Source: a virus. From it: a stretch of 64,000 bases of DNA. Where the stretch lies: IMG/VR virus record IMGVR_UViG_3300024502_000011, positions 1-64,000 of that record. One strand, written 5' to 3'. Both the position numbers and the translations under genes were made by a program. The notes under the pieces are model-generated. The model worked only from the letters and a program-made list of their open reading frames with translations. It searched no databases and was not told the origin of the DNA. Positions 4,620 to 25,991 of this stretch are shown here, in pieces; the stretch's first letter is position 1; every line of letters starts with the position of its first letter.

Positions 4620-4626
4620 AATTTAG

Positions 4627-4655: not shown

Positions 4656-4665
4656 AAAAATGTGA

Positions 4666-4743
4666 TGGCGTGTAGCTCAGTTGGTTTAGAGCGCAGACCT
4701 GATAAGTCTGAGGTCACTGGTTCGATTCCAGTCACGCCAACCA
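4666..4743 (+). tRNA. tRNA-Ile(GAT)
   Basis: Acceptor TGGCGTG/CACGCCA, D arm GCTC/GAGC, anticodon loop CTGATAA, T arm CACTGG/CCAGTC, ACCA. Normal class I body. Confidence 0.93.
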
Positions 4744-4763
4744 AAAAATAAAAAGGATAAATT

Positions 4764-5819: not shown

Positions 5820-5830
5820 ATAGTTTAAAC

Positions 5831-5904
5831 ACCCGCTTAGTGTAACGGCAGCACAAATGACTTTGACTCATTTAGTCTAGGTTCGAATCCTGGAGCGGGT
5901 GCCA
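5831..5904 (+). tRNA. tRNA-Gln(TTG)
   Basis: Acceptor ACCCGCT/AGCGGGT, anticodon stem AATGA/TCATT with loop CTTTGAC, T arm ending TTCGAAT, discriminator G, CCA. Confidence 0.92.
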
Positions 5905-5907
5905 AAC

Positions 5908-5936
5908 TTGACAACAATTAAAAATTTTGGTATAAT
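5908..5936 (+). promoter_or_regulatory. promoter of the PNKP gene
   Basis: TTGACA (5908-5913), 17 bp, TATAAT (5931-5936); the ATG at 5943 is 6 bp further. The mRNA should be leaderless. Confidence 0.82.
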
Positions 5937-5942
5937 TAAATT

Positions 5943-6866
5943 ATGAAAGCATATATTACAATTGGTCTTCCTGCTTCTGGGAAAACGACCTGGGCCAAAG
6001 AGTTTTGTAAAACGAATAACGTTGTTCGTGTGAACAACGACGACATTCGTGAACTTATTTATGAGAAGGAAGGCCATCGGAATTGGACTGGCGAAGTCGA
6101 GAAACAGGTCCGGTGGATTCGCAAAGCAAAGATTGTAGAAGCAGCAGGACACAATATGAGTGTTGTGGTGGATAACACTCACCTGAATCCAAAGACGCTT
6201 CAGCAGATCAAAGACTTTTGTGTTGATGTTGGATTCGAAGTTGAGTTGGTAGATTTCCGTCATGTGCCTCTTGAAGAGTGCATCCGCCGTGATTCTTTGC
6301 GTGAAGCGAAAGTTGGAGAAAAGGTAATTCGTGATATGTATGATAAATTTATGAAAACTCCGATTGATCGTGATCTCCCAAAATGGGAACCTAATCGACT
6401 ATATAATTGTATTATTGTTGATATTGATGGTACTCTTGCTCAAATGAAAGATCGTGGACCTTATGATGAACATAAAGTATATCAAGACGATGTTCGAAAT
6501 CATGTCTTAATGACTGTTAAGGCATTGAAGATGATCAATCCGAATTTTAAAATATTTATTTTTACTGGACGTTCTGAAAAGTGTTCAACTGAAACTGTTA
6601 AATGGCTAGAAGATAAATGTGGCTTTTATGTTCTGAATCATCATGATGAATATGATGATTTTCGATTAAATGTTGAACTTCATATGAGACAAGAAAATGA
6701 TCGTCGTAGAGATTCAGAAGTAAAAATGGATATGTACAATCAATTCATCAAGTATAAATATAATGTATTTGCTGTTTTTGATGATCGCCCACAAGTCATC
6801 AGAGAATGTTGGAAAGTATTAAATGTTCCAGTTTTTAATTGTGGATTAATAGATTTGGAGTTCTAA
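5943..6866 (+). CDS. pseT: polynucleotide kinase-phosphatase (T4 PseT type)
   Basis: Phosphorylates 5'-OH ends and removes 3' and 2',3'-cyclic phosphates of RNA/DNA, preparing nicked tRNA for ligase. The N-terminal kinase has P-loop GLPASGKTT (residues 8-16) and VDNTHLN. The C-terminal HAD phosphatase has DIDGTLA (about 160-166), FTGRSE and FDDRPQ. At 307 aa it is close to T4 PNKP (301 aa, same order). Leaderless promoter; a small membrane-protein gene overlaps its stop (TAATG). The RNA ligase partner is at 58856-59899, and the many tRNAs are plausible substrates after host anticodon-nuclease attack. Confidence 0.93.
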   Translation: MKAYITIGLPASGKTTWAKEFCKTNNVVRVNNDDIRELIYEKEGHRNWTGEVEKQVRWIRKAKIVEAAGHNMSVVVDNTHLNPKTLQQIKDFCVDVGFEVELVDFRHVPLEECIRRDSLREAKVGEKVIRDMYDKFMKTPIDRDLPKWEPNRLYNCIIVDIDGTLAQMKDRGPYDEHKVYQDDVRNHVLMTVKALKMINPNFKIFIFTGRSEKCSTETVKWLEDKCGFYVLNHHDEYDDFRLNVELHMRQENDRRRDSEVKMDMYNQFIKYKYNVFAVFDDRPQVIRECWKVLNVPVFNCGLIDLEF

Positions 6867-7027
6867 TGTCACCACCTGTATTTTTTACTGCACTAGCTGT
6901 TATTCTTTGTTATCTTTGTTATAAATTAGGAGTAGCTTTAGAGAGAGAAAAATGGATTTACCATCTACACTTTCTTGAACGTGGTGTTGCGAAATGTTAC
7001 AGAAATGGTAAAGTAGATCTTCTTTAA
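6866..7027 (+). CDS. small membrane protein, 53 aa
   Basis: One N-terminal hydrophobic helix (about residues 4-24, PVFFTALAVILCYLCYK), then a charged cytoplasmic tail. The ATG at 6866 overlaps the PNKP stop and is preferred over an upstream TTG. Function unknown. Confidence 0.6.
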   Translation: MSPPVFFTALAVILCYLCYKLGVALEREKWIYHLHFLERGVAKCYRNGKVDLL

Positions 7028-7035
7028 GAGGAAAT

Positions 7036-7218
7036 ATGTACGAGAATTTAATTGGAAAAAATGTTGATGAAGTTAGAGATTTTTTAAAAGAAAATCAAAT
7101 TCCTTCAAGAGTTGTAAATATTGATGGTGTCCCATTCATGTTGACAAATGATTATAATCCAGCCAGATTAAATCTTTCTGTTGAAAATGGTTTGGTTACT
7201 GAAGTAATTATAGGTTAA
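7036..7218 (+). CDS. I78-like peptidase inhibitor
   Basis: 60 aa: IGKNVDEVRDFLKENQIPSR, then DYNPARLNLSVENGLVTEV. The second part matches the I78/potato-inhibitor-I pattern DYxPxRLNxxVxxxGxVTxV, which carries the reactive loop. That family inhibits serine proteases. Here it is cytoplasmic (no signal peptide), so it might protect phage proteins from a host protease. Family assignment is from pattern memory. Confidence 0.6.
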   Translation: MYENLIGKNVDEVRDFLKENQIPSRVVNIDGVPFMLTNDYNPARLNLSVENGLVTEVIIG

Positions 7219-7219
7219 T

Positions 7220-7753
7220 ATGAAACGTTGGGTGATTTCTGATACACATTTTGGTCATGAGAATATTATTAAATATTGTAATAGACCATTTCAAACAAAA
7301 GAACAAATGGATGAAGTTCTAATAAATAATTGGAACAAATGTGTATCAGAAAATGATATTGTTTATTTTCTTGGTGATTTTTGTTTTGGTCGTCCAGGAC
7401 ATCAAGTTTCAAAAAATTATCGTGAGAAATTAAATGGAAAAATACATTTGATTCGTGGTAATCATGATAAATATATTGACGAATCTTTGTTTGAAACATC
7501 ACAAAATGATCTAGTATTAAATATCATGGATAAACAAATTTATCTTTGTCACTATCCAGAAGAAGATAATAGATTTAATAAGCCATACTATGATTTTTAT
7601 CTGTATGGTCATATTCATGATAAAATAAAATTTCACCCAAGAAAATTCAATATGTGTGTTGAAAATTGTGATTATACACCAATTGATTTAGATTTTTTTG
7701 TTGATTTTATTTCTAGACATTATGGAGACAATTATGAACCAAAAGAAAGTTAA
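7220..7753 (+). CDS. calcineurin-like metallophosphoesterase, 177 aa
   Basis: All five family motifs are in order: SDTHFGH (residues 6-12), GDF, GNHD (about 80), HYP and GHIHDK (about 131). These ligate two metal ions. The short single-domain form is common in phages and bacteria, with phosphodiesterase or phosphatase activity on an unknown substrate. It begins 2 bp after the I78 inhibitor gene. Confidence 0.88.
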   Translation: MKRWVISDTHFGHENIIKYCNRPFQTKEQMDEVLINNWNKCVSENDIVYFLGDFCFGRPGHQVSKNYREKLNGKIHLIRGNHDKYIDESLFETSQNDLVLNIMDKQIYLCHYPEEDNRFNKPYYDFYLYGHIHDKIKFHPRKFNMCVENCDYTPIDLDFFVDFISRHYGDNYEPKES

Positions 7754-7949
7754 GGTTATTCCTGAACAAATTATTCCTTCACGAATGATTGGTTCATGTT
7801 ATCAATGTGATTTTTATTTCACAGATTCTTTAGGCGATTCTAGATTCTGTAAAAAAGTTAATAAAGAAGTAGATTTGCGAATTGGTGAAAAATTTCCAAA
7901 ATGGTGTCCACTAGAAGAAAAAGAAATTGATGAAAATATTTTCCTCTAG
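7734..7949 (+). CDS. Cys-rich small protein, 71 aa
   Basis: CYQCDFYF at about residue 22, then FCKKVNKE and WCPLEE: four cysteines that could bind one zinc. The ATG at 7734 is preferred to 7698 because GGAG sits at the right distance. It overlaps the end of the phosphoesterase gene. Not recognised. Confidence 0.6.
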   Translation: MNQKKVKVIPEQIIPSRMIGSCYQCDFYFTDSLGDSRFCKKVNKEVDLRIGEKFPKWCPLEEKEIDENIFL

Positions 7950-7952
7950 CAC

Positions 7953-7981
7953 TTGACAAACCATAAAATTTTTGATATTAT
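7953..7981 (+). promoter_or_regulatory. promoter for tRNA-Pro/tRNA-Asn
   Basis: TTGACA (7953-7958), 17 bp, TATTAT (7976-7981), 14 bp before tRNA-Pro. Confidence 0.7.
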
Positions 7982-7995
7982 AAATATATAAACAT

Positions 7996-8074
7996 AGGGA
8001 AATAGAGGAGCCTGGTTTATCTCGTCTGTTTTGGGAACAGAAGCACGTCGGTTCGAATCCGACTTTCCCTACCA
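7996..8074 (+). tRNA. tRNA-Pro(TGG)
   Basis: Acceptor AGGGAAA/TTTCCCT, anticodon stem TCTGT/ACAGA with loop TTTGGGA, T arm GTCGG/CCGAC, ACCA. Confidence 0.9.
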
Positions 8075-8080
8075 AATTTT

Positions 8081-8155
8081 TCTGGAATAGCTCAATGGTA
8101 GAGCGTCTGGCTGTTAACCAGAATGTTGTAGGTTCGAGTCCTACTTCCAGAGCCA
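8081..8155 (+). tRNA. tRNA-Asn(GTT)
   Basis: Acceptor TCTGGAA/TTCCAGA, D stem GCTC/GAGC, anticodon stem TCTGG/CCAGA with loop CTGTTAA, T arm GTAGG/CCTAC, G then CCA. Confidence 0.93.
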
Positions 8156-8158
8156 AGA

Positions 8159-8226
8159 TGCGGCTCATGGCAATAGTCACCCACGGTAAGGAGAGATTAG
8201 AAACTCGCAGACTATAAAAATCCGCA
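8159..8226 (+). ncRNA. structured RNA closed by TGCGG/CCGCA
   Basis: Nested helices: TGCGG (8159-8163) with CCGCA (8222-8226), ATAGTC (8173-8178) with GACTAT (8210-8215), and a GAG/CTC hairpin inside. It begins 3 nt after tRNA-Asn. No ORF and no tRNA features. Unknown family. Confidence 0.45.
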
Positions 8227-8249
8227 AACAAGATTAGTGAGGATAAATT

Positions 8250-8411
8250 ATGAAATATTTTTTATTTGCGTGTAGTTTTTTATTTTCTGGATATTTTGTT
8301 AATGCAAATGTTCCAAAGTTTTGTACTCCGCATGGATGTTGTGTAGATAAATGTCCGTGTGTGAAGAAATGTTTATGTGATTGTGCATGTAAACGAAAGA
8401 AGCGATCATGA
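8250..8411 (+). CDS. secreted Cys-rich miniprotein, 53 aa
   Basis: MKYFLFACSFLFSGYFVNA is a signal peptide with a plausible cut after VNA. The mature part of about 34 residues has nine cysteines (CTPHGCC, CPC, CLCDCAC) and a basic KRKKRS tail. It should be exported and then disulfide-bonded or metal-loaded. AGGATAAATT precedes the ATG. Not recognised; metallothionein-like or toxin-like are options. Confidence 0.65.
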   Translation: MKYFLFACSFLFSGYFVNANVPKFCTPHGCCVDKCPCVKKCLCDCACKRKKRS

Positions 8412-8435
8412 TCGCTATTAAGGTATAATGAATAT

Positions 8436-8720
8436 ATGAAATTCTTTAGCTTTCTACAAAATAATTCTTTCGGTATTGATAAGCCTCCACCAAAAGTTGT
8501 TATTGTTGAGGCGGAAAATGCCGAAGATGCGAACAAGCGTATTTTAGAAGTAGATGGCGTTTATTTCGGTGGTAATAATCGCTGGTCCCGTCAGTTGTCT
8601 TATGAAGTTGGTGATGAAGTCCCGTCTCTTTGGGGTGATCCTCTTGAATTTGCTGAAGATGGAAACGTTTTAGTGGTTTATGCAAACGGTGAAAAAAAGT
8701 TTGGTGTTTTTCACTGGTAG
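8436..8720 (+). CDS. conserved phage protein, paralogue of 45172-45495
   Basis: 94 aa. MKFFSFLQNNS, VVIVEAENAEDANKRILEVDGVYF and VVYANGEKKFGVFHW closely match the minus-strand gene at 45172-45495. The other copy has an extra CDSG...CPCCGDR insert with cysteines that this one lacks. Function unknown. A TATAAT box at 8424-8429 ends 6 bp before the ATG, so the mRNA is probably leaderless. Confidence 0.75.
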   Translation: MKFFSFLQNNSFGIDKPPPKVVIVEAENAEDANKRILEVDGVYFGGNNRWSRQLSYEVGDEVPSLWGDPLEFAEDGNVLVVYANGEKKFGVFHW

Positions 8721-8722
8721 TA

Positions 8723-8752
8723 TTGACTTCTCAATTCCTTTCGAGGTATAAT
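8723..8752 (+). promoter_or_regulatory. promoter for tRNA-Thr
   Basis: TTGACT (8723-8728), 18 bp, TATAAT (8747-8752), 14 bp before the tRNA. Confidence 0.65.
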
Positions 8753-8766
8753 GGTTGTATGGTAAA

Positions 8767-8842
8767 GCTATGATAGCTCAATTGGTAGAGCAACGGTTTT
8801 GTAAACCGTAGGTTGTCAGTTCAAGTCTGACTCGTAGCTCCA
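8767..8842 (+). tRNA. tRNA-Thr(TGT)
   Basis: Acceptor GCTATGA/TCGTAGC, D stem GCTC/GAGC, anticodon stem ACGGT/ACCGT with loop TTTGTAA, T arm GTCAG/CTGAC, T then CCA. Confidence 0.92.
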
Positions 8843-8866
8843 AAGATTGTGGTTGATGGACGTATA

Positions 8867-8952
8867 GTGATGTTAGGTTAATGGTAGACCGCCGGAACGG
8901 TTAGCTAACCTTTGTAAATCCGGAGGCCCTGGTTCGACCCCAGGACATTGTT
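8867..8952 (+). tRNA. tRNA-like gene with a hairpin inserted in the anticodon loop
   Basis: Acceptor GTGATGT/ACATTGT, D arm GGTT/GACC, anticodon stem CCGGA/TCCGG and T arm CCTGG/CCAGG all form. The anticodon loop is 22 nt instead of 7 because it holds the palindrome GGTTAGCTAACC. If about 15 nt were removed, the loop would read TTGTAAA (GTA, Tyr). CCA is not encoded. It could be an intron-like insertion, a decayed tRNA or a decoy. Confidence 0.5.
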
Positions 8953-8976
8953 ATACAGGAGTCTAAAAAGTATGCA

Positions 8977-9049
8977 TGAGATTGGCTACCACGAATAGAC
9001 AGAATTAGAAATTTCTAGATAACTTCTAAGGATGTTTATAACAATCTCA
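8977..9049 (+). ncRNA. structured RNA closed by TGAGATTG/CAATCTCA
   Basis: A perfect 8-bp terminal stem (8977-8984 with 9042-9049) encloses an AT-rich body that includes the palindrome AGAAATTTCT. No tRNA arms, CCA or ORF. Unknown family. Confidence 0.4.
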
Positions 9050-10193: not shown

Positions 10194-10371
10194 CTTTAAA
10201 TGCCAAGTATGCAATAAAGAGTTTGAGATGATTTTAAAAATGGATGAAGATATTACTCGTTATCCAGGATGCGAAAATGTTGAGTGTTTTATTAAAAAAA
10301 TTCCTAGTGCCTGTGGTATTAAATTTAATGGTTCTGGATTTTATATAAATGATTATAAGGAGAAAAAATGA
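10180..10371 (+). CDS. FmdB-like zinc-ribbon protein, 63 aa
   Basis: MPIYDFKCQVCNKEFEMILKM is the FmdB-type ribbon start, with a second C...C pair further on (PGCENVEC) and the usual FNGSGFY near the end. The in-frame start at 10153 lacks this conserved beginning. Overlaps the next gene by 4 bp. Nucleic-acid-related role assumed. Confidence 0.7.
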   Translation: MPIYDFKCQVCNKEFEMILKMDEDITRYPGCENVECFIKKIPSACGIKFNGSGFYINDYKEKK

Positions 10372-11387
10372 AGTTTATTTTAGTAAGTATTTTTAGTATT
10401 GGGTTGATGTTCTCTCAACCTACTGTGTCGCCTTCTAGTGTGAATGTGACTTTTGATTTAGCAACAGATACAATTGTTGCTGTACCTGACGTAACAATTT
10501 CTTCAAATGCAGCACCTTTTGCATTTACTACAGTTGTTCCATCCAATCAGCAAGCTGTTCTTGTTTGGCCTGTTCAGGGTTTTCTGGCACCTGGAACAAA
10601 TCAAGTTGTAAAGATGTCTGTAGTAAATAATGGTCTTTCTGTTGGATCTTATAATATTCCAGTTAACTTTGTTCAGAATTCACCATCTGTATCTGTTTCT
10701 GTGGGTATTAATCTTACAGTAATTGATTCACGAACCTTTACTACTTCAACCGATCCAATTATTCCCCATATTGCATCCGGTGGTGGTTGGACAACAACTG
10801 TCAGACTAACAAACACATCCAATTGGATCAGTCTAGTTACTCTGAAGTTTTATGAACCTTCGGGAACAAATTCACCATTCTTTATTAATGGAAATTATGT
10901 TTCTGAACATTCTGTCGTTGTTCCTGGAAATGGTTCCGTTGATGTAGTTCTATCAGATCCACTTTCACTAAAGACTGGTTCTTTGGATATTAAGACTGTA
11001 TATGGTTCTGGTGTAGTTGCTCAGGCAACATATTCAAATGCTTCTTTTGAAGCAACGATTTCAAGTTCTATTGCTAATCGAGATGGATTCTCATTACCAT
11101 ACGATAATTATGGTTCTTTTTCAACTGGATTAGCTCTAGTTAATTATCTAAATTATACACAAGAAGTAGCATTTACTTTTTATGATAATCTAGGAAATCA
11201 AATCCATACAGATAAAATTACTCTTCCTGCAAGGGGTCAAACTGCCTTAACACTAGACGTAGCTTTCCCACAAACAAAAGGAAAAGTTGGTTCTGTTCGT
11301 GTTAAGACTACACGTTCTGCACTAACTGGATTTGGTTTGAAGTTTAATCGTGATAAGGGTTATTTCACAACAATTCCTATCTTCTAA
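10368..11387 (+). CDS. secreted beta-sandwich protein of acidobacterial style, 339 aa
   Basis: Signal peptide MKFILVSIFSIGLMFSQ. Residues 20-120 resemble a BACON/Ig-like domain (PSSVNVTF, FTTVVPSNQQAVLVWP). Residues 130-339 hold HIASGGGWTTTVRLTNTSN and FTFYDNLGNQ motifs that recur in secreted proteins of Acidobacteriota. It should be exported to periplasm, surface or outside. Ends with a strong terminator. AAGGAGAAAAA precedes the ATG. Probably acquired from the host lineage; role unknown. Confidence 0.65.
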   Translation: MKFILVSIFSIGLMFSQPTVSPSSVNVTFDLATDTIVAVPDVTISSNAAPFAFTTVVPSNQQAVLVWPVQGFLAPGTNQVVKMSVVNNGLSVGSYNIPVNFVQNSPSVSVSVGINLTVIDSRTFTTSTDPIIPHIASGGGWTTTVRLTNTSNWISLVTLKFYEPSGTNSPFFINGNYVSEHSVVVPGNGSVDVVLSDPLSLKTGSLDIKTVYGSGVVAQATYSNASFEATISSSIANRDGFSLPYDNYGSFSTGLALVNYLNYTQEVAFTFYDNLGNQIHTDKITLPARGQTALTLDVAFPQTKGKVGSVRVKTTRSALTGFGLKFNRDKGYFTTIPIF

Positions 11388-13057: not shown

Positions 13058-14029
13058 ATGTCACTTTGGGGAAATAAAGATTCCAAAACAATTACAGGAA
13101 CATCAATTTCTGTAACACAAAATAGTGCAGCAGTCACAGGAAGTGGAACAGCATTCACAACAGATTTAGAACCAGGACAATATTTAGTTATTTCTGGTGT
13201 TGAATATAAAGTTTTATCAATCACAAGCGATACTGCATTAACATTAGCTGTAGTTTATGCTGGAACAACAGCAACAATTACAATTTCTGGAAACGTAACA
13301 GCTAACGAAAAACCATCATATATTCCAACAGCAGATATTCCAAATGTTTATGGTGTTGACTCAACAGAAATTTCTGTTGGTTCAGACAATGTTGTAAACG
13401 TTGCAATTATTTCTGGTGGAACACAATATATGGAAGCACCAGCCGTTTCATTTAGCGGTGGTGGTGGTTCTTCTGCTGCTGCAACTGCTACAATTTCAGG
13501 TGGTGTTGTAACTGCAATTGCTGTATCAAATGTTGGTTCATCATATACATCAGCACCAACAGTTACTGTTGGTAAGCCATTTGCAACAATCGCAACATCA
13601 GCAGTTAACACATCAACAGAAGTTATTACATATAATTCACATAGATTTGTAACTGGTGATGCTGTCACATATTCAAATGGTGGTGGTTCAACAATGGGTG
13701 GTTTAACAAATGCCACTGTTTATTACATTAATAAAACTGGTGGCAATACATTTAAACTATATGATACATTAGCTAATGCACAAACTGGTGGTGCTACTGG
13801 TTTAATGGATTTAACCGGAACTGGTAATAACGCACAAACATTAACACTAACTTCCGGTGAAGCAACAGCAGCATCAGTTTTAGGTTCTGGTAATAAAGGT
13901 TTCCATGCTGGTTGGGTTAAGAAAACAGTAGGAACTGGTGGACGTGCTGGACGTGTTCAGTATGAAACACTAGTTGCTATGGGAACAATCACTGGTGACG
14001 CAGAAGATATTAACTTCCCAGACGCATAA
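13058..14029 (+). CDS. virion structural protein, 323 aa
   Basis: Begins MSLWGNKDSKT and ends with FHAGWVKKTVGTGGRAGRVQYETLVAMG, the signature ends of a structural protein of T4-like cyanophages. The middle is Gly/Ser/Ala/Thr-rich beta sequence (SFSGGGGSSAAATATISGG), typical of adhesin or tail/head decoration repeats. TATAAATA and TTATAAGGAG precede it. Exact virion location unknown. Confidence 0.8.
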   Translation: MSLWGNKDSKTITGTSISVTQNSAAVTGSGTAFTTDLEPGQYLVISGVEYKVLSITSDTALTLAVVYAGTTATITISGNVTANEKPSYIPTADIPNVYGVDSTEISVGSDNVVNVAIISGGTQYMEAPAVSFSGGGGSSAAATATISGGVVTAIAVSNVGSSYTSAPTVTVGKPFATIATSAVNTSTEVITYNSHRFVTGDAVTYSNGGGSTMGGLTNATVYYINKTGGNTFKLYDTLANAQTGGATGLMDLTGTGNNAQTLTLTSGEATAASVLGSGNKGFHAGWVKKTVGTGGRAGRVQYETLVAMGTITGDAEDINFPDA

Positions 14030-14323: not shown

Positions 14324-14378
14324 ATAATGAGATGCCTAAAAGGATCTCATTAAATCACTCGCTTAAATGGAGAAAAAC

Positions 14379-14804
14379 ATGACACTAAGACGTATTAATT
14401 TAGATACATTTCCTTTCCCTTCTTATGATAATTTAACCAGTTTTTGGGCAGAACAGGCCAAACAAACTGGAACTTATCCTCCTTACAATCTCACAAAAAA
14501 TGAAGATTCAACCAAATTCAATATTACTCTAGCAGTTGCTGGATTTGGTCCTGAAGATTTGGATGTTTCAATTGAAGAAAATCAATTAATCATTCAGGGT
14601 AAGGTGAAGCCTAAGAATTTACCAGAAGGTATTTCTTATGTACATAAGGGAATTGCTGAACGAGTCTTTACTAAGACATTCACTTTAGGTGAACATGTTG
14701 AAGTAAAAGATGTAACTTATCAAGATGGACTACTAGATGTTAGTCTAGAACTAGTTGTTCCTGAACATAAGAAACCAAAGAAGTTCACAATTTCAACTAA
14801 ATAA
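14379..14804 (+). CDS. hsp20: small heat-shock protein (Hsp20/IbpA family)
   Basis: An alpha-crystallin domain spans about residues 45-140: FNITLAVAGFGPEDLDVSIEENQLIIQG, GIAERVFTKTFTLGEHVEV and YQDGLLDVSLELVVPE. Hsp20 genes are a hallmark of T4-like cyanophages, where they probably help virion assembly. The ATG at 14379 has GGAG 9 bp upstream and is preferred over 14367. 141 aa. Confidence 0.9.
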   Translation: MTLRRINLDTFPFPSYDNLTSFWAEQAKQTGTYPPYNLTKNEDSTKFNITLAVAGFGPEDLDVSIEENQLIIQGKVKPKNLPEGISYVHKGIAERVFTKTFTLGEHVEVKDVTYQDGLLDVSLELVVPEHKKPKKFTISTK

Positions 14805-15117: not shown

Positions 15118-15121
15118 AAAA

Positions 15122-15142
15122 TCGGGAACCAATGGTTCCCGA
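15122..15142 (+). terminator. probable intrinsic terminator
   Basis: TCGGGAACC - AAT - GGTTCCCGA, followed by TAAGTGTTTTA. It separates the small gene from the TonB receptor. Confidence 0.7.
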
Positions 15143-15191
15143 TAAGTGTTTTAGGGGTAAAAAAATTAATTAAATTGTAACAAAGGAATCT

Positions 15192-18100
15192 ATGAAATAT
15201 TTATTAAGTTTATTTTTATTAACGACTAGCCTATTCAGTCAAGAAGCTTCTATTAGAGGAAAGATTTTTGATAAGAATGAAGAAGTAATTATTGGTGCAA
15301 CTGTTAAGATTCAGAACGAAAAAACTGGATCTGTAAGAGAAGTTGTAACAAATGAAGTTGGTGAATACATTATCACAAATCTACCTGCTTCATCTTATAA
15401 TGTAAAAGCTTCTGCTCCTGGTTTTGCAAATACACAGAAAACAGGAATTAAACTATTAGTTAATGAATCTATTGGTATTAATTTCATCTTAGTACCTCAA
15501 ATTATTAAGACTGAAATTATTGTTGAAGGTGGCGAAGTTACATCTATTGATACATCCTCAGCGAAGATTGGTGTTAATGTTTCTGAAAGAGAAGTTTCAA
15601 ATCTGCCACTAAATGGTAGACAAATTTCGCAGTTATATCTATTAGCTCCAGGCGCTTCAACTGCTGGTGGTGGTACATTTGATAATATTAAGTTTAGCGG
15701 TAGATCTAATCAGCAAAATGCTATTAGATATGATGGTATTGAAGGATCTTCTATTATTGATGCTTCTCCAGGTAATCTAAATGGACAGATTTCTTCATTT
15801 TTTAGATTACAATCTTCAATGGAAAATGTTCAAGAATTTCGTGTTGAATCTAATAATTATCCAGCAGAATATGGTACAGGAACTGGTGGTCAAATCACAA
15901 TTGTAACTAAGTCTGGTGGTAATAAGATTCATGGTGGTGTTTTTGAATATCTTAGAAATAATGTATTAGATTCTAGAAATTTCTTTGATGCTACTAAGAA
16001 TCCTTTACGTCTAAATCAATTTGGTGGCTCTATTGGCGGTCCAGTAAAGCAAGATAAGACTTTTTGGTTTGCTTCATATGAAGGTCTAAGGCAGAGACAA
16101 TCAGTTCCATTTAGAGAAGCTGTTCCATCAGAATCAGCAAAAGCAAGAGCAGTTCCACAAGTTAGAAATCTTCTAGCACTTTATCCAGTTGGAAATATTC
16201 CAACAACAGATCCAAATGCTTCTATTGTTGCTATTGATAGAAAACAGACTGTAGATGAAAATTCGTTTGGTCTAAGATTAGATTCAAAAATTTCAGATAA
16301 TCTTTCTGGATATTTCCGTTACTTCAGAGATAATGGTAAGTCAATTCAACCACTAGGTGTTACTGGAAATTCTATTGATGTTACTGCGGTCCCACAAAAT
16401 GCTGTAGCAAATGTTCAATGGATTATCTCGCCACAGAAAATTAATGAAACCAAGATTGGATTAAATGCTTATAAAACAAGAGCATGGGGAACTGCACCAA
16501 TTGTAAATAACTTTAATCCAGCAGATATTTCAATTAATCTAACTGGTGGCGTTGCTTTATCTGGTATTACAACACAAGGTTCAAGCACAGGATTTGCTAC
16601 TGCTGGTGGTCTAGTAAGATCAAATTCTGCTACAAATGGACGTGGACAACCTTATACTAATACTTCAATTACTTTGATTGATAATTTTTCATGGATTAAT
16701 TCTTCTCATAATTTTAAGTTTGGTGGAGAATTAAGATTTATCCGTTTATTTACAGATCGTCTTGGTGGTACAACTTATAGCTTCTCAAACGTAGAAGATC
16801 TAATTAATAATCGTCCATTACAAATTCAATTTTTGGGAGATCTTTCTGCACCTTCTCCGTTTAATAATGGAGCAACTGGAGAAAGACAAATTACTCAGAA
16901 TTATCTAATTGGTTATGCACAAGATGAATGGAAAGTATTTTCTAACTTTACTGTTAATTATGGAATTAGATATGAATTCTATTCAGTTTTCAAAGAAAAG
17001 AGAAATCTATTAGTTAATTGGTCACCAGAAACAGGAAACATTTTACCAAATAATCTTCCTGTCTATCGTTCAAATAAAGATAATTTTTCACCAAGATTAT
17101 CTGGAACTTGGAGTCCAAAATCTCTAAATGGTAAGACTGTATTTCGTGTAGGAACTGGTGTTTATTTTGGACCTGGACAACCAGAAGATCTAATTCAACC
17201 ATTTGAATCTGATCGTGTTAGTAAGACTATAACTAATACAACTTATCCAATTAATCCTACTTCAATTATTGCTTCTTACAATATCAATGATCCAAATCTT
17301 CGATTTCAACCAAGAGCTTATTCTTCTGGTTATAATATTCCGGAAACTGTTTACTCATATACAGCATCAGTTCAACAACAAATTAAAGATAATGTTTTAA
17401 CTGTTGCATATGTTGGTTCTCTTGGTAGAAATCTGTTTATTAGAACTCTTGGAAATCTAATCACAGATGTAACTCCTACTGGAACTGTAAAGAGACAATG
17501 GGGTGATAGATTTGCTGAAGTTGACGTAAAGACATCAGGTGGTAATGATCATTATAATGCTTTACAGGCAACTCTAAACAGAAAAACAAAGAGTGGTCTA
17601 ACTTATGGTGCATCATACACATGGGGAAGATCAATCGGTTCATCTGGTGGCTCAAATGAAACTGTAACTGTTGCAAATCCTTATAATTGGAGAACTGATT
17701 ATGGTAATAATGCGGCGGATATTCGTCATAATTTAAATGTTGTTGGATTGTATGAATGGAAAACATGGCAGATCGGTTCTGTTATCAATACCAGATCAGG
17801 TCTTCCTCTTGATCCATTAATCGTCAGAAACGATATTATCTTCTTTGACAAATCATCTGGAATGTACTATAATAGTTCTGTAGGGTCTAATTCTGTAGCT
17901 GTTATTAATGTTCCTGGTGGTGGTCAAACAAGACAAATCCGCAGACCTGATTATGTATTAGGAGTTTCGCCATATATCAAGAATTCTGATAAAACAATTT
18001 TCTTGAATCCTGCTGCTTTCTCAGTACCAATGCCTGGAACTTTTGGAAATGCTTCTAGATACTCATTAAGAGGTCCAATGCTTTTCCAAGCAGATCTAAC

Positions 18101-18377
18101 TCTTCAGAAAAAGATTTACACTAAAGACAAATATAATTTAATTTTCAGAACAGAATTATATAACATCTTTAATAATGTAAATTTTGCAAATCCTCCAGCA
18201 CAATTACCAAATGCAATTCCATCCAGAATTGGTCAGTCTAATACACTACAACCTGGACAGGTTTATTCAAATGCAACAAAAGGAGCAGCATTCGGAACAG
18301 TACAATCAACACTAGATAAAACTGTTGGTCTGGGAACTTCTAGACAGTTACAGTTAAGTCTAAGAGTCAATTTTTAA
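15192..18377 (+). CDS. TonB-dependent receptor-like outer-membrane protein, 1061 aa
   Basis: Signal peptide MKYLLSLFLLTTSLFSQ. Residues 19-110 are a carboxypeptidase-regulatory-like (CnaB) domain (GATVKIQNEKTGSVREV, GEYIITNLPASSYNV). A plug domain follows (VSNLPLNGRQISQLYLLAPGAS, FRVESNNYPAEYGTGTGG). The rest is a 22-strand-type barrel with SIGGPVKQDKTFWFASYEGL and a C-terminal aromatic strand (RQLQLSLRVNF). This layout is expanded in Acidobacteriota (Oar-like receptors). No internal stop, so it looks functional. It would be exported and inserted in the host outer membrane, perhaps altering uptake or blocking superinfection. AAAGGAATCT precedes the ATG. Very rare in phages. Confidence 0.85.
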   Translation: MKYLLSLFLLTTSLFSQEASIRGKIFDKNEEVIIGATVKIQNEKTGSVREVVTNEVGEYIITNLPASSYNVKASAPGFANTQKTGIKLLVNESIGINFILVPQIIKTEIIVEGGEVTSIDTSSAKIGVNVSEREVSNLPLNGRQISQLYLLAPGASTAGGGTFDNIKFSGRSNQQNAIRYDGIEGSSIIDASPGNLNGQISSFFRLQSSMENVQEFRVESNNYPAEYGTGTGGQITIVTKSGGNKIHGGVFEYLRNNVLDSRNFFDATKNPLRLNQFGGSIGGPVKQDKTFWFASYEGLRQRQSVPFREAVPSESAKARAVPQVRNLLALYPVGNIPTTDPNASIVAIDRKQTVDENSFGLRLDSKISDNLSGYFRYFRDNGKSIQPLGVTGNSIDVTAVPQNAVANVQWIISPQKINETKIGLNAYKTRAWGTAPIVNNFNPADISINLTGGVALSGITTQGSSTGFATAGGLVRSNSATNGRGQPYTNTSITLIDNFSWINSSHNFKFGGELRFIRLFTDRLGGTTYSFSNVEDLINNRPLQIQFLGDLSAPSPFNNGATGERQITQNYLIGYAQDEWKVFSNFTVNYGIRYEFYSVFKEKRNLLVNWSPETGNILPNNLPVYRSNKDNFSPRLSGTWSPKSLNGKTVFRVGTGVYFGPGQPEDLIQPFESDRVSKTITNTTYPINPTSIIASYNINDPNLRFQPRAYSSGYNIPETVYSYTASVQQQIKDNVLTVAYVGSLGRNLFIRTLGNLITDVTPTGTVKRQWGDRFAEVDVKTSGGNDHYNALQATLNRKTKSGLTYGASYTWGRSIGSSGGSNETVTVANPYNWRTDYGNNAADIRHNLNVVGLYEWKTWQIGSVINTRSGLPLDPLIVRNDIIFFDKSSGMYYNSSVGSNSVAVINVPGGGQTRQIRRPDYVLGVSPYIKNSDKTIFLNPAAFSVPMPGTFGNASRYSLRGPMLFQADLTLQKKIYTKDKYNLIFRTELYNIFNNVNFANPPAQLPNAIPSRIGQSNTLQPGQVYSNATKGAAFGTVQSTLDKTVGLGTSRQLQLSLRVNF

Positions 18378-18378
18378 T

Positions 18379-18594
18379 ATGATGACAAATGAACAAAAGA
18401 TAGAAATCTACGAAGAACTTCTGCATAGAATCCAACTCTATGCAGAAGTTACACTAGATTCAGAAAAACTAAATAATTTAATAAGAAATATTTGTAAATG
18501 GTCCTATGCACATAGAGTTGGAAATGGTTATTCACCAATTGAAGAGTTAGATGAAAGGATTGAAAATGCAACCAAAAAATTATTGGAAAGATAA
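18379..18594 (+). CDS. hypothetical protein, 71 aa
   Basis: Helical and charged (NEQKIEIYEELLHRIQLYAEVTLDSEK). Starts at the first base after the receptor stop; a second Met follows at once. Its 3' end overlaps the next gene. Not recognised. Confidence 0.6.
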   Translation: MMTNEQKIEIYEELLHRIQLYAEVTLDSEKLNNLIRNICKWSYAHRVGNGYSPIEELDERIENATKKLLER

Positions 18595-19207
18595 ATTTGA
18601 AGATATTATGTATAGTGTAAAATATAGATATCATAATATCTTGAATTCTATTAGATATAGAACAACTAGAAGATATTATATTGTAAATAGTGGTTTAAAA
18701 CCTGGATATTATGACACAGGTGAACTCATTTTACATGTTAATTTCAAGCTTCTTGTTGATTTTGTTGAAATTGAAAAAGCATGGATGAATACATGGACTG
18801 ATGATAGTGCATATTCTAAGTTGTCTTGGTTTCAAAAGAAATTTTGCAGATTCCGTTCACCCCAAGATGGAATTGCATATCTAAATTGGGAAATTAATGA
18901 ATCTCAATTAGAACATCAAACAAAATCAGCAAAAGAAATTTTAGAACTTTATACTTGGTGGAAAGTAACTAGACCAAATAGACCAGATCCATATATTGAA
19001 GCTGGTTATGATGAAGTTTTTAAAGATAAAAACTTATCTGAACATTTTATAAGAGAAGAAGGAAGTAATACTTATACTATGAAACCATTCACTAAGAAAG
19101 AAAGTGCAGTATTTGAAAAAGTAACAAAAATCGAAAATAAATATGAAAAAGAAGATGAAAAAATGTTAATTCGTCTGATGAAAATTCGCAAATCTCTTTG
19201 GACATAG
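18566..19207 (+). CDS. hypothetical protein, 213 aa
   Basis: Starts MQPKNYWKDKFEDIMYSVKYRYHN. Basic N-terminus, then SGLKPGYYDTGELILHVNFKLLVDFVE and a long aromatic/charged helical body (WKVTRPNRPDP). In T4-like phages similar uncharacterised proteins exist. ATG at 18566 is preferred to 18551 because it follows GAAAGGATTG. No membrane segment. Function unknown. Confidence 0.65.
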   Translation: MQPKNYWKDKFEDIMYSVKYRYHNILNSIRYRTTRRYYIVNSGLKPGYYDTGELILHVNFKLLVDFVEIEKAWMNTWTDDSAYSKLSWFQKKFCRFRSPQDGIAYLNWEINESQLEHQTKSAKEILELYTWWKVTRPNRPDPYIEAGYDEVFKDKNLSEHFIREEGSNTYTMKPFTKKESAVFEKVTKIENKYEKEDEKMLIRLMKIRKSLWT

Positions 19208-19209
19208 AA

Positions 19210-19830
19210 ATGGATAAACAACTTTTACAACCAATTTTAGATGCGTTTGTAGCACATGGAATTACTAACCCTTATTTGCAGAAAGCGATAATTGCTAACA
19301 TGCAAAAAGAATGTGGTTTAATCCCAAGAGAAGAAAATCTAAATTATTGTAAAACTGACAACTCTAGAATCAAATCTATATTTGGTTCTAGAGTTTCTAA
19401 ATTAACTGATTCTGAATTATCTACAATTAAATGTAATCCAAGAGAATTTGCAGAATTAATTTATGGTTCTAATAATTCTATCGGTCGTTTGATGGGCAAT
19501 ATAAATCCCGGTGATGGTTGGATTTATCGTGGAAGAGGTTATATCCAATTAACAGGTAGAGCTAACTATAAGACATATGGTGATATGTGTGGATTCAATA
19601 TTATTCAAAATCCGGACTTATTGGTAAGTGATAAAACTATTTCTGCTATTATTTCTGTTAAATTTATTTTAGTAGGTTTACATGGGAATACAAAATTTAC
19701 TAATCAAGCAGATGCGGATAGAGCGGTTACACAAGTAATTGGTGGTAGGGGATTAAATTTAAATAGTGGATATGGTGCTGAACTTTTAGCAAAGGTTAAT
19801 GATTTTTCATCAAAAATATTTCTTTCTTAG
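19210..19830 (+). CDS. GH19 chitinase-like endolysin, 206 aa
   Basis: Degrades peptidoglycan at lysis. The family 19 fold is shown by HGITNPYLQKAIIANMQKEC (catalytic Glu region) and DGWIYRGRGYIQLTGRANY, the GH19 signature at about residue 95. No signal peptide, so export would need a holin. ATG at 19210 begins 2 bp after the preceding stop; an upstream TTG overlaps that gene. A consensus promoter for the polymerase starts at its stop codon. Confidence 0.85.
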   Translation: MDKQLLQPILDAFVAHGITNPYLQKAIIANMQKECGLIPREENLNYCKTDNSRIKSIFGSRVSKLTDSELSTIKCNPREFAELIYGSNNSIGRLMGNINPGDGWIYRGRGYIQLTGRANYKTYGDMCGFNIIQNPDLLVSDKTISAIISVKFILVGLHGNTKFTNQADADRAVTQVIGGRGLNLNSGYGAELLAKVNDFSSKIFLS

Positions 19831-19865: not shown

Positions 19866-22361
19866 ATGAAATTTTATACAAATGTTGCCAGTATTGGTAA
19901 TACTGTTTATGTTCGTGAAGTTAATAACGGAGTACCCTCAAATTATAAGTTTGAATATGCTCCATCACTTTATATTCCTTCAAAAAATAAATCTAACTTC
20001 AAATCTCTAGACAATAAGTATCTAGAAAAAGTAGATTTTATAAATATCAAAGATTATAATGAATTTATTGAGAAATACAAGGATGTTTCCAATTTCTCAA
20101 TTTATGGTGATATTAATCCTATTTTTTCATACATCTCAGAAAACTATCCAAATGATATTGAATTTGATATGAAACATATCAAGATTATGACTTTGGATAT
20201 TGAGACAGAATCTGAACATGGTTTCCCAAAAGTAGAATACACTCAAGAACGTGTAAATTTAATTACCGTAAAAGTATTTAATTCAAAACATTATTTTACT
20301 TTTGGACTTGGTGAATTTACTCCAAAAAATAAATATCAAAATTACATTCAATGTGAAGATGAAAGTGAACTTTTAGATAAGTTTTTACTTTTCATGGAAA
20401 AGATGCAACCAGATATTATTACTGGTTGGAATGTCAGATTTTTCGATATTCCTTATCTTGTAAGACGTATAAATATGATTCTTGGTGATGGAGCCAGTAA
20501 AAGACTTTCATTTTGGAAGTACATTCGTGAAAAAACTGTTATCATGAATGGAAAAGAAAATGTAACTTATGATCTTTATGGTACGTCAATTATTGATTAT
20601 TATGAAATCTACAAGAAAAATGTACTTGAGCCAAGAGAATCATATAAACTAGATTTTATTGCTCAAGTAGAACTTGGTGATAATAAACTTCCCTTCGATG
20701 GTTCGTTCAAAGAATTCTATTCAAACCATTACCAAACATTCGTTGAATATAATATTCAAGACGTTGCTCTTGTTGATAGATTAGAAGCAAAACTAAAACT
20801 AATCGAATTAACTTTAAGTGTTGCTTACTTTGGTCATGTTAATTACGTTGATGTCTTATCTCAGGTCAGAACTTGGGATACCACAATTTATAATTATCTA
20901 AAAAACAAAAACATTATTGTTTCACAGAAGAAAAATTCATCAAAGAGTGATCAATTTGTTGGAGCATATGTTAAAAATCCAAAAGTTGGTTTCCATAAAT
21001 GGGTTGTTAGTTTTGACGTTAACTCACTCTACCCTTCTATTATTCGTTTCTTAAATATCGGTGTTGAGACAAAATCCCCAAATAAGAAATTTTTTAATAT
21101 TGAACAGGTATTAGAAAGTAATGACTTTTCTTTTGATAAAGATTATACTATTGGTGCAAATGGTGTAATGTATAGAAAAGATTTTATTAGTTTTTATTCT
21201 GAACTTGTTGAAAAACTATTTAATGATAGAATTAAGTTTAGAAAATTAGCTAAGGAAATGGAGAAGAAAGCAAAAGAAAATCCCAACGATCCAGATATTG
21301 AAAATATTAATAATCTTCAAAGTAAGTATGACTTAAAACAGAAAACAATGAAGATTCAATTAAATTCATTATACGGAGCTATGGGTAATGAATATTTTAG
21401 ATTTTTTGATTTAGAAAATGCTCAAGCTGTTACAATGACTGGTCAGTTTATTATTCGTTATGTCGGTAATAAGCTAAATGATTTCTTAAACAAAAAAATT
21501 GGAACAGAAAATTATGAATATGTGATTTATATTGATACTGATTCAAACTACATTACATTAGATCCTCTTGTATCCAAAATGTTTCCTAAAGAAACAGATA
21601 ATAAAAAGATTGTAGATTATATTGATGATTTTTGTGTTAATGTAATTGAAACAGAAATTGAAAATATTTTTAAAGATATTTCTGATAATTTCTTAAACGG
21701 AATGAATCCAGAAATCTTAAAAATGAAACGAGAAGTTATTGCTGATAAAGGTATTTGGCAAGCAAAAAAGAGATATATTTTAAACACCTATGATGTTGAA
21801 GGGTTAAGATATGAAACACCTAAACTAAAAGTCATGGGAATGGAGATTGTTAAATCTTCAACTCCAAAGTTTTGCAGAGAAGAAATGAAAAACTGCGTAA
21901 AACTAATTATGACAAGTAATGAAGAAACATTACAGAAATATATCATTGATGTAAGAAATAGATTTAATTCTTGTTCAGTTGAAGAAATATCATTTCCAAG
22001 ATCAGTTAATGGTCTTGAGAAGTATTCTGATAAATCAAATATTTTTACAAAAGGAACTCCAATTCATGTAAAGGGTGCGTTAATTTATAATAACTTATTA
22101 ACAGAGAAAAAGTTATATAATACATATCCTTTAATTAATGAAGGTGAGAAAATTAAATTTATTCATTTGAAAAAACAAAATCCAACTTCAGATTCTGTTA
22201 TTTCATTTAACACAAAACTTCCAAAAGAATTAGGTCTTCATAAGTATATTGATTATGAAAAACAATTTGAGAAGACATTTATTGAACCATTAAAGAGTAT
22301 CTTAGATACAATTGGATGGGAATTAGAAAAAACAATCACATTAGAGGATTTATTCGGTTAA
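19866..22361 (+). CDS. 43: DNA polymerase, family B (T4 gp43-like)
   Basis: Replicative polymerase with 3'-5' proofreading. Exonuclease: TLDIETES (Exo I, about residue 115), GWNVRFFDIPYL (Exo II), YNIQDVALVDRL (Exo III). Polymerase: SFDVNSLYPSI (motif A, about 380), KIQLNSLYGAMGNEYF (motif B, about 497) and YIDTDSN (motif C, about 560). 831 aa against 898 in T4; all catalytic Asp residues are present. It heads the recombinase-helicase cluster; the next gene starts 4 bp after its stop. Confidence 0.97.
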   Translation: MKFYTNVASIGNTVYVREVNNGVPSNYKFEYAPSLYIPSKNKSNFKSLDNKYLEKVDFINIKDYNEFIEKYKDVSNFSIYGDINPIFSYISENYPNDIEFDMKHIKIMTLDIETESEHGFPKVEYTQERVNLITVKVFNSKHYFTFGLGEFTPKNKYQNYIQCEDESELLDKFLLFMEKMQPDIITGWNVRFFDIPYLVRRINMILGDGASKRLSFWKYIREKTVIMNGKENVTYDLYGTSIIDYYEIYKKNVLEPRESYKLDFIAQVELGDNKLPFDGSFKEFYSNHYQTFVEYNIQDVALVDRLEAKLKLIELTLSVAYFGHVNYVDVLSQVRTWDTTIYNYLKNKNIIVSQKKNSSKSDQFVGAYVKNPKVGFHKWVVSFDVNSLYPSIIRFLNIGVETKSPNKKFFNIEQVLESNDFSFDKDYTIGANGVMYRKDFISFYSELVEKLFNDRIKFRKLAKEMEKKAKENPNDPDIENINNLQSKYDLKQKTMKIQLNSLYGAMGNEYFRFFDLENAQAVTMTGQFIIRYVGNKLNDFLNKKIGTENYEYVIYIDTDSNYITLDPLVSKMFPKETDNKKIVDYIDDFCVNVIETEIENIFKDISDNFLNGMNPEILKMKREVIADKGIWQAKKRYILNTYDVEGLRYETPKLKVMGMEIVKSSTPKFCREEMKNCVKLIMTSNEETLQKYIIDVRNRFNSCSVEEISFPRSVNGLEKYSDKSNIFTKGTPIHVKGALIYNNLLTEKKLYNTYPLINEGEKIKFIHLKKQNPTSDSVISFNTKLPKELGLHKYIDYEKQFEKTFIEPLKSILDTIGWELEKTITLEDLFG

Positions 22362-23751: not shown

Positions 23752-25105
23752 TGATTTCACAAGAAAGACTATTCCTTTCATTGAAGAGGAATATTTTAGT
23801 AATTCACATGAGAGAATTTTTTTCTCTCATGTGAAGAACTATTTCAATCAATATAATAGTTTACCTACAAAAGAAGCATTAGCTATTCTTGTAAGTAACG
23901 ATAAGAATATTAATGAGAGAGACTTTGAATCTATTAAAGAAACTTTAGAAGAAATTTCTAATGACACAGACGAAACCAACACACAATTTTTAATTGACAA
24001 GACCGAACAGTTTTGTAAAGATAGAGCAATTTATAATGCAATCATTAAGTCTGTAAATATTATTGAAGGTAAAGATGATAAGTTAGATAAAGGTGCTTTA
24101 CCAAAACTTCTCAGTGATGCTTTAGGTGTTTCTTTTGATAGAAATGTTGGTCATGATTATCTTGAAAATTCCGATGAAAGATTTGAATTTTATCATCGCA
24201 AAGAAAACAAAATTCCATTTGCATTAGACTATTTTAATAGAATTACTTCTGGTGGTATTAGTGAAAAAACTCTTACTGTTATTCTTGCTGGAACTGGCGT
24301 AGGTAAATCCTTGTTCATGTGTGATATGGCTTCATCAGTTTTTATGATGGGTAAGAATGTCCTTTATATCACACTTGAAATGGCAGAAGAAAGAATTGCT
24401 GAAAGAATTGATTCTAATCTTTTAAATGTTCCAATTGTTGAAATGAGAAAATTATCTGAAGATAATTTCAACAAAAAGTTAACAGCAGTTAGAAGTAAAA
24501 CAACTGGAAAATTTGTTGTAAAAGAATATCCAACCGCATCAGCTAATGCTAATCATTTTCGTGTTCTATTGAATGAATTAGCTATGAAAAAGAATTTTGT
24601 TCCAGATATTATCTTTATTGATTATCTAAATATTTGTTCAAGTTCAAGACTTAAAGTTGGTTCTAATGTAAATAGTTACACTTATGTTAAATCTATTGCA
24701 GAAGAGATTCGTGGTTTAGCTGTTGAATATTCAGTTCCAATTGTTACAGCAACACAAACCACTCGTTCAGGTTATTCAAATTCAGATGTTGGTTTAGAAG
24801 ATACATCAGAAAGTTTCGGTCTTCCAGCTACAGCAGATTTAATGTTTGCTCTTATTAGTACTGAGGAACTTGAAAAGTTAAATCAGATAATGGTGAAGCA
24901 ATTGAAAAATCGTTATAATGATCCAGCCATGTATAGAAAGTTTGTTGTTGGTATTGATAGATCAAGAATGAAACTTTATGATGTCGATCAATCAGCACAA
25001 GATTTAGTTGATTCTGGACATGATGATGAAGAAGATGATTTAGAAGAAACAATTGTTAAATCTCCATTCAAATTCAAAAATAAATTTTCTGATTTTAAAT
25101 TCTAA
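23708..25105 (+). CDS. 41: replicative DNA helicase, DnaB/gp41 family
   Basis: Hexameric 5'-3' helicase. The N-terminal helical domain covers about residues 1-140. The RecA-like core has Walker A GTGVGKS (about 197), LEMAEERIAERID, Walker B IIFIDYLNIC, TATQTTRSGYSNS and SESFGLPATADLM (H4-like). 465 aa against 475 in T4. Acidic C-terminal tail. It acts with the primase at 32059. Confidence 0.95.
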   Translation: MTLENIILKNLVKNDDFTRKTIPFIEEEYFSNSHERIFFSHVKNYFNQYNSLPTKEALAILVSNDKNINERDFESIKETLEEISNDTDETNTQFLIDKTEQFCKDRAIYNAIIKSVNIIEGKDDKLDKGALPKLLSDALGVSFDRNVGHDYLENSDERFEFYHRKENKIPFALDYFNRITSGGISEKTLTVILAGTGVGKSLFMCDMASSVFMMGKNVLYITLEMAEERIAERIDSNLLNVPIVEMRKLSEDNFNKKLTAVRSKTTGKFVVKEYPTASANANHFRVLLNELAMKKNFVPDIIFIDYLNICSSSRLKVGSNVNSYTYVKSIAEEIRGLAVEYSVPIVTATQTTRSGYSNSDVGLEDTSESFGLPATADLMFALISTEELEKLNQIMVKQLKNRYNDPAMYRKFVVGIDRSRMKLYDVDQSAQDLVDSGHDDEEDDLEETIVKSPFKFKNKFSDFKF

Positions 25106-25139
25106 TAAATATTTAATAAATATTTCAAGGAGTTTGCGA

Positions 25140-25991
25140 ATGTTCAAAGAAGAAGCTGAAGGTAGAATGATATTAGCTCAACTGGAAAAAATTTCTAAGT
25201 TATCAGCAGCATTAATGGATAAAATTTCTGATTCTGATGACTTAGAAGGTTGGGTTCAAAATAAAATTGATTTGGCAGAAGATTATATTCAAACAGTATA
25301 TGATTATATGACATATAATTCTGATTCAGTTTCTGAAGATGTTAATGAAGATTTGCGTAAATGGTTTAGTAAAACTGATCCAAAAGGTAATTGGGTTAGA
25401 ATTGGAACCGATGGTGAAATTAAAGGAGATTGTGCTAGAGAAGAAGGTGAAGGTAAACCAAAATGTTTACCCAAACAAAAAGCAGACTCTATGAGTAAAG
25501 AAGATAGAGCAAAAGCTGCTAGAAGAAAGCGCAGATTAGATCCACAAGCAGATAGACCAGGAACCGGAAATAAACCAATAAACGTAAAAACAGAAGAAGT
25601 TGAATATTTAGAAGAAAAGAATGTTCCTTCCAATGCTAAATTATGGGCTAGAGCAAAAGCTTTAGCTAAACAAAAGTTTGATGTTTATCCATCAGCATAT
25701 GCTAATGGATGGGCAGCTAAATGGTATAAATCTAAAGGTGGAACTTGGAAAACAAAATCTGAACAATTCATAAAAGGCACAAAAATGAAAACATTTAAAG
25801 AGTTTAGAGAAAGTTTGAATGAATGTGGTTGTGATAGTGTTATTGTAGAGAAGTCACCAAATGATCCAGAAATTGAAAAATGGATCAAGTCAAACAAAGC
25901 AAGATTCAAGAAAGAATATGGTGAAAAGAAAGGAACAGAAGTTCTTTACGCTAAAGCATGGGATATGTATAATAAGAAACATAAGAAGTAA
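25140..25991 (+). CDS. conserved phage protein, probably virion or scaffold associated, 283 aa
   Basis: Residues 1-60 (FKEEAEGRMILAQLEKISKL, WVQNKIDLAEDYIQTVYDYM) match a domain recurrent in small proteins of T4-like marine phages. Residues 85-165 hold KWFSKTDPKGNWVRIGTDGE and a basic KRRLDPQADRPG. The C-terminal third has VPSNAKLWARAKALAKQKFD and GWAAKWYKSKGGTW, also widespread in phage structural loci. A fusion of three such modules. The start has AAGGAG upstream; an in-frame upstream start lacks one. Confidence 0.7.
   Translation: MFKEEAEGRMILAQLEKISKLSAALMDKISDSDDLEGWVQNKIDLAEDYIQTVYDYMTYNSDSVSEDVNEDLRKWFSKTDPKGNWVRIGTDGEIKGDCAREEGEGKPKCLPKQKADSMSKEDRAKAARRKRRLDPQADRPGTGNKPINVKTEEVEYLEEKNVPSNAKLWARAKALAKQKFDVYPSAYANGWAAKWYKSKGGTWKTKSEQFIKGTKMKTFKEFRESLNECGCDSVIVEKSPNDPEIEKWIKSNKARFKKEYGEKKGTEVLYAKAWDMYNKKHKK

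Follow-up and report, generated by a model that had tools for sequence, protein, structure and literature searches.

A TonB-dependent receptor gene in phages that likely infect Acidobacteriota, with a probable role in phosphorus acquisition

The receptor gene and its protein

The DNA analysed here (the window) is a 64,000-nucleotide stretch, positions 1 to 64,000 of the 124,014-base virus record IMGVR_UViG_3300024502_000011, which carries at 15192–18377 on the plus strand an intact gene for a TonB-dependent receptor, identified by its open reading frame, by Pfam and by the same gene in other contigs: 1061 codons for 1061 residues, an ATG start, no internal stop and a phenylalanine as last residue. 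The full record holds one match to the receptor protein. Our comparisons suggest that the gene probably serves the phage as an auxiliary gene for phosphorus acquisition, encoding a TonB-dependent transporter of the Pho-regulon type.

The protein begins with a putative signal peptide, read by eye from the sequence, followed by a CarboxypepD_reg-like N-terminal domain at residues 20–100 (15249–15491, plus strand; PF13620, 65.7 bits against a cut-off of 32.3); the outer-membrane beta-barrel family PF25183 (OMP_b-brl_4) reaches 439.6 bits over the whole protein against a curated cut-off of 30, with its best-scoring stretch at residues 319–1054 (16146–18353, plus strand). No separate Pfam plug family was matched at E<=0.01, and the probable plug is assigned by homology; residues 120–300 contain long invariant runs among the five phage copies compared. 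The domain layout given by the original prediction stands for the regulatory-like domain, the barrel and the final aromatic residue, with the plug as probable and the signal peptide as putative.

Other resources hold few relatives: neither the PDB, searched by sequence, nor PHROGs gave a match or a family at E<=0.01; NCBIfam gave three weak matches only, all far under their cut-offs; and an unverified 6-kb clone, 25% identical, was all that matched among 50,697 annotated phage records. An AlphaFold model of the receptor has a predicted local distance difference test score (pLDDT) of 35, the only longer well-folded part being the CarboxypepD_reg-like domain.

The gene is at home in a phage, as the original prediction held: the flanking genes are of phage type (family-B DNA polymerase, UvsX recombinase, DnaB-type helicase and GH19-type endolysin), its G+C content at third codon positions (GC3) is 0.134, inside the range of 0.086–0.28 in 13 other genes of the window's phage, and its codon usage correlates with that of the phage genes at 0.964.

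Phage lineages, exchange and selection

Scans of viral contigs recovered the receptor in eight further contigs, in one of which it is cut at the contig end, and a ninth (L012) holds only its last 68 residues. Three lineages can be told apart. Lineage 1 comprises the window, 3300024507 (which shares 23 kb of the window at 100% identity), 3300028073 (22 kb at 99.96%) and 3300010354. Lineage 2 comprises 3300034062, 3300002835 and 3300042309, the last being the one cut at the contig end; its receptor is 95% identical to the window's at the nucleotide level and its gene order is conserved, whereas its DNA polymerase is just 46% identical. Lineage 3 comprises 3300031857, 3300042882 and 3300005805, with a receptor of 72% amino-acid identity to the window's, and its fetched stretches have a G+C content of 45–50%. 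Not all of the contigs are independent: L004 and L006 share 23 kb without a difference. An assembly chimera, the possibility that the original prediction had set against itself, is ruled out by the recurrence of the gene in separate contigs and in three phage backgrounds.

Two of these contigs bear on other parts of the window. Wherever L012 aligns with the window the two are 97–99.5% identical, but 25352–25781 of the gene at 25053–25991 stays unaligned. In L027, of lineage 3, the stretch that holds the receptor also encodes a thymidylate synthase and an RNA ligase/tail-fibre attachment gene; residues 354–426 of the window's putative tail-fibre gene (27165–29270) match part of a 1585-residue protein near the receptor in L027 at 66% identity, and the same tail-fibre gene has internal repeats at 27941–28274 with offsets of about 66 bases.

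The receptor gene moved recently between lineages 1 and 2: its synonymous divergence (dS) is 0.15, whereas that of eight other genes is 0.86–2.46. The block at 15146–18378 (plus strand) is 95.2% identical at the nucleotide level to L004 and L006, which belong to the different lineage; its left flank is left unaligned by blastn and its right flank is 77% identical. The lineage 2 receptor has a GC3 of 0.144, against 0.17–0.38 in four of that phage's own genes, and therefore a phage resembling those of lineage 1 may have been the source of this copy. The claim of long residence in the original prediction is accordingly to be divided: it holds for the family as a whole, which has a stem of 0.37 in our tree and a 28% amino-acid difference between lineages 1 and 3, but not for the recently exchanged lineage 1 and 2 copies.

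Related phages lack the gene or retain remnants of it. At the empty sites (L017, L018, L019 and L179; L181 and L180 are contigs of L017 and L019) a homolog of the window's Hsp20 gene lies about 0.3 kb ahead of homologs of the genes that start at 18379 and 18551, with no receptor between. In L182, the nearest backbone relative found (polymerase 77% identical to the window's), positions 8833–9021 hold approximately the first 45 and the last 18 receptor codons around an internal deletion, with an internal stop, so the receptor gene was evidently lost there. L013, a contig 99% identical to L004, has at 1–2205 minus-strand open reading frames instead of an upstream receptor; it may be rearranged or chimeric, and we left it out of the count of empty sites.

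Selection on the receptor gene was gauged by the ratio of nonsynonymous to synonymous substitution rates (dN/dS), which comes to 0.11 for lineage 1 against lineage 2 and to 0.087 for L026 against L028; the receptor genes of L026 and L027 are 99.7% identical. These values lead us to reject a passenger gene, and the receptor in phages appears to be a host-derived gene kept by purifying selection. A wider form of the passenger idea, in which a host gene was acquired by chance or joined in assembly, could draw on the related phages in which the gene is reduced or absent; it is, however, difficult to reconcile with ten viral records (a total that takes in the record of the window, a truncated copy and a bare gene end), with phage receptors that form one clade on a long stem, or with the purifying selection, and we find it barely credible.

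The insertion region of the window is bordered on the left by an Hsp20-type small heat-shock gene (14367–14804, plus strand; PF00011 and synteny) and on the right by an open reading frame of 71 residues (18379–18594, plus strand; placed by synteny, with no family match). A consensus scan found a hairpin with T-rich tails, terminator-like on both strands, just 5' of the receptor gene (15121–15143). The 71-residue frame adjoins the receptor in both lineage 1 and lineage 3, but from opposite sides, its homologs in L026–L028 lying just upstream of the receptor. Further right, all on the plus strand, follow a conserved phage gene of unknown function (18551–19207; synteny), the GH19-type endolysin (19198–19830; Pfam and PHROGs) and the family B DNA polymerase that served as backbone marker (19866–22361; Pfam and PHROGs; 46% amino-acid identity to L004). 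The position of the receptor near a tail-like gene (13058–14029) and a lysis gene would suit a phage that adsorbs to this Pho-type receptor and re-expresses it; a phage normally benefits when its receptor disappears from infected cells, and we consider such a supply of receptors highly improbable.

Elsewhere the record encodes PhoH (PF02562, E 5e-46; 71482–72252 of the full record). The first 9 kb of the window contain 20 tRNA genes on the plus strand (52–8842), including two adjacent tRNA-Trp genes, and two further tRNA genes lie on the minus strand at 49.3–49.5 kb; between 41000 and 53000 the G+C content climbs from about 0.30 to 0.41–0.455, the GC skew is reversed and long open reading frames are scarce.

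Bacterial orthologs and their link to phosphate genes

Four loci came back when genomes were scanned with the phage alignment, each of them labelled Acidobacteria or Bryobacterales; three such genomes each have one locus at 48–53% identity near full length, with many weaker paralogs besides. The ortholog was found in 24 of 396 genomes of a phylum sample (E<=1e-220) and in 65 of 257 genomes of one order (E<=1e-230; best identity 57%), as a rule once per genome and twice in some. These Acidobacteriota Oar-like receptors (ortholog group G292/G529) share the PF25183 plus PF13620 make-up with the phage proteins, to which they are 45–57% identical over the full length; they differ in that the phage copies form a separate clade and that the codon usage of the window's copy is that of a phage.

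The relation to Acidobacteriota Oar-like receptors that the original prediction proposed is borne out by phylogeny. Our tree contains 72 proteins: five from phages, 61 bacterial orthologs (59 of the 60 loci described below, plus L029 and L030; L135, which a stop interrupts, was excluded) and six of 20 paralogs. In this quick search under LG+G4, in which two lineage 1/2 copies have unusual residue composition, the phage proteins form one clade within the Acidobacteriota ortholog group, with a Shimodaira–Hasegawa-like approximate likelihood ratio test (SH-aLRT) value of 100, a stem of the length given above and no sampled bacterial ortholog inside. The clade branches among the deepest ortholog lines, and the tree does not settle its sister. 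The simplest reading is one acquisition from an Acidobacteriota genome and later spread between phage lineages. The phages likely infect Acidobacteriota, because the receptor orthologs occur there and because a secreted-looking protein of the window (10368–11387, plus strand; homolog in the L026–L028 lineage) has relatives in that Acidobacteriota order, to which this search was confined (17 of 61 genomes).

To characterise the orthologs we fetched the surroundings of 60 of them (19 of the 24 phylum genomes plus G003, and 40 of the 65 order genomes), up to 8 kb per side with several ended by a contig edge, together with 20 paralog control loci. Genes of the pst system lie within 8 kb in eight of the 60 ortholog loci (L060, L062, L064, L073, L138, L142, L147 and L158), where they stand divergent to the ortholog, downstream of it or upstream of it, in several gene orders; ppk adjoins the ortholog in L064 and L065, and in G178 pstS lies 14.7 kb from it. 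No pstS was present in the 20 control loci, one of which has two generic matches to ATPases of the ATP-binding cassette type. Since 25 of the 60 ortholog genomes yielded a pstS, mostly as a single gene, approximately 0.09 linkages are expected by chance, giving P 1e-13 for eight linkages, or 3e-6 if only four are independent. The eight linked genomes provide an internal comparison: among the at least 98 matches listed, 11 are ortholog rows, and among the 87 other matches listed none comes closer to pstS than 8.1 kb, beyond the 8-kb limit.

The promoters of the orthologs point in the same direction. A Pho box consists of two direct repeats of 7 nucleotides with a spacer of 4 nucleotides (PMC3131613), and therefore has a period of 11 bp. 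In the 200 bases before the 60 orthologs, pairs of the hexamer [CT]GT[ACT]A[CT] occur at a spacing of 11 in 12 sequences (13 pairs), with zero pairs at spacings of 6–10 and 12; first-order shuffles give a mean of 0.06 sequences with an 11-bp pair and a maximum of two in 500 sets, and none of the 20 paralog promoters has one. Because the hexamer was chosen after inspection, we used the other open reading frame starts of the same loci (mechanical calls of at least 150 residues) as an outside test: only five of 563 have a pair, four of them before pstS and the fifth before a response regulator gene (Fisher p 9e-10, nominal, as are all motif p-values here, since the hexamer and TGTAW were chosen post hoc and the loci are related). 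Omission of L060 from both sides leaves 11 of 59 against four of 562 (p 2e-9). At a p of roughly 0.01 or below, a promoter matrix finds 45 of the 60 orthologs and a single one of the 20 controls; as it scores its own training set, we rely on the spacing tests. The pstS promoters of L060, L142, L147 and L158 also score on this receptor-promoter matrix (p 0.002–0.006). The confinement of the pairs to orthologs, pstS and a response regulator indicates Pho-box behaviour of the motif; the bacterial orthologs look, by their promoters and neighbours, like Pho regulon genes.

Comparable repeats precede the phage gene in lineage 3: three TGTAW words in 11-bp phase lie before the receptor (p 1e-3 in L026, 4e-4 in L027 and 2e-4 in L028). 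The in-phase triples 77 bp before the receptor are the only ones in the fetched L027 and L028 stretches, and none occurs in 123,999 bases of the window's record.

A candidate route for phosphorus into the infected cell

We propose that during infection the phage-made receptor would be exported to the host outer membrane where, driven by host TonB, it would import phosphate or a phosphorus-containing ligand; host Pst or phosphatases would then process the imported ligand, and the import would relieve phosphorus limitation of phage DNA synthesis. Ligand, transport, membrane location, expression, infection benefit and host identity are what we infer for this receptor. Among the functions listed in the original prediction (import of a nutrient, masking of the phage receptor, and exclusion of other phages or of TonB-dependent toxins), nutrient import is favoured and points to phosphorus, because the bacterial orthologs are linked to pst and ppk genes and carry Pho-box-type repeats.

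A number of observations weigh against this proposal. In the phages themselves, in-phase repeats are absent before the receptor of the window and of L004 (p 0.75 and 0.74), and we dropped the idea of 11-bp repeats in the window's own promoter; the matrix gives only p 0.02 for the window, at a site 147 bp upstream, p 0.16 for L004 and just p 0.03–0.05 in lineage 3, in L026 and L027 at another place than the repeats; and predicted Pho boxes in phage genomes are described as unreliable (PMC10976474). L182, for all its closeness in the backbone, is without a functional receptor gene, and PhoH turned up in five of the 15 further viral records, many of which are fragmentary; three of those five lack the receptor and two carry it. 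Among the bacterial loci, eight of 60 against none of 20 controls gives p 0.19, not significant alone; 52 of the 60 loci, some cut by contig ends, are without pst genes; pstS was not found at E<=1e-30 in 35 of the 60 genomes; and most ortholog loci come from one order, so that the counts are not independent. As to the motif, the hexamer and the TGTAW statistic were both picked after the promoters had been inspected, hexamer pairs also occur at spacings of 13 (four) and 14 (six), the L060 pair is the box of a divergent pstS in a common intergenic region, and of the eight pstS promoters those of L062, L064 and L138 are without the matrix motif and that of L073 scores weakly (p 0.038). The receptor model, at its low pLDDT, gives no ligand site, and the group-specific positions of an alignment of four phage proteins, 61 orthologs and 20 paralogs show a weak excess of arginine (12 of 100; p 0.0035, uncorrected for the 14 residue types).

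TonB-dependent receptors are common receptors of phages and colicins, and the gene could instead remodel the host surface, i.e. block superinfection, or mask or replace a surface protein used by rival phages or TonB-dependent toxins; its Pho history would then merely reflect which host gene was taken. Gain, loss and exchange among related phages would fit such an arms race as well. However, the gene-averaged dN/dS of 0.11 and 0.09 fits a working transporter better than a mask, and the Pho-type repeats of lineage 3 fit a transporter tuned to phosphate, whereas a mask should need no phosphate control. We therefore consider surface remodelling unlikely, and regard phosphorus acquisition as the better account of the receptor.

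Phage-carried TonB-dependent receptors are already known, and it is the link to phosphate that appears to be new. The marine megaphages Mar_Mega_1 and LR745206 carry a SusC-type TonB-dependent receptor that is likewise listed as an auxiliary metabolic gene and was suggested for carbohydrate uptake (PMC9723777), where we propose phosphorus; no match between these phages and our receptor emerged at E<=0.01 in the 50,697 phage records, among which their presence was unchecked. In the cyanophages, pstS and PhoB-controlled genes are reported (PMC10976474), i.e. phage phosphate genes read by host PhoB, which is the likeness we draw here; PstS is a periplasmic binding protein, whereas our case concerns the outer-membrane step and another likely host phylum. 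Among bacteria, Flavobacterium johnsoniae has TonB-dependent transporters induced by phosphate depletion, as well as PusCD, and one orphan transporter is listed with pf13620 (PMC8115612); these are Bacteroidota proteins, likened to ours by description and not by sequence. The Caulobacter receptor Cc0171 was suggested to take up phosphate, yet was reported to be constitutive (PMC2996285). An infant-gut virus paper has SusC in its abbreviation list, where viral auxiliary genes are also listed (PMC12352455), and a paper on glaciers tallies TonB-dependent receptors on metagenomic islands (PMC12494485). In the open-licence literature, judged on titles and the starts of abstracts, we recognised no phosphate-linked TonB receptor of a phage.

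Phages are known to carry the phosphate binding and stress genes pstS and phoH. The receptor described here may extend this repertoire by one membrane beyond pstS: a complete outer-membrane phosphorus gate in phages of Acidobacteriota, actively transporting on the power of TonB, read by host PhoB in at least one lineage and traded between lineages as a cassette, a proposition for which we hold the balance to be even. If it is true, viruses can control the entry of nutrients into the Gram-negative cell at its first barrier; and for one of the very many Oar-like receptors of Acidobacteriota, the evidence gives a hint of the substrate class.

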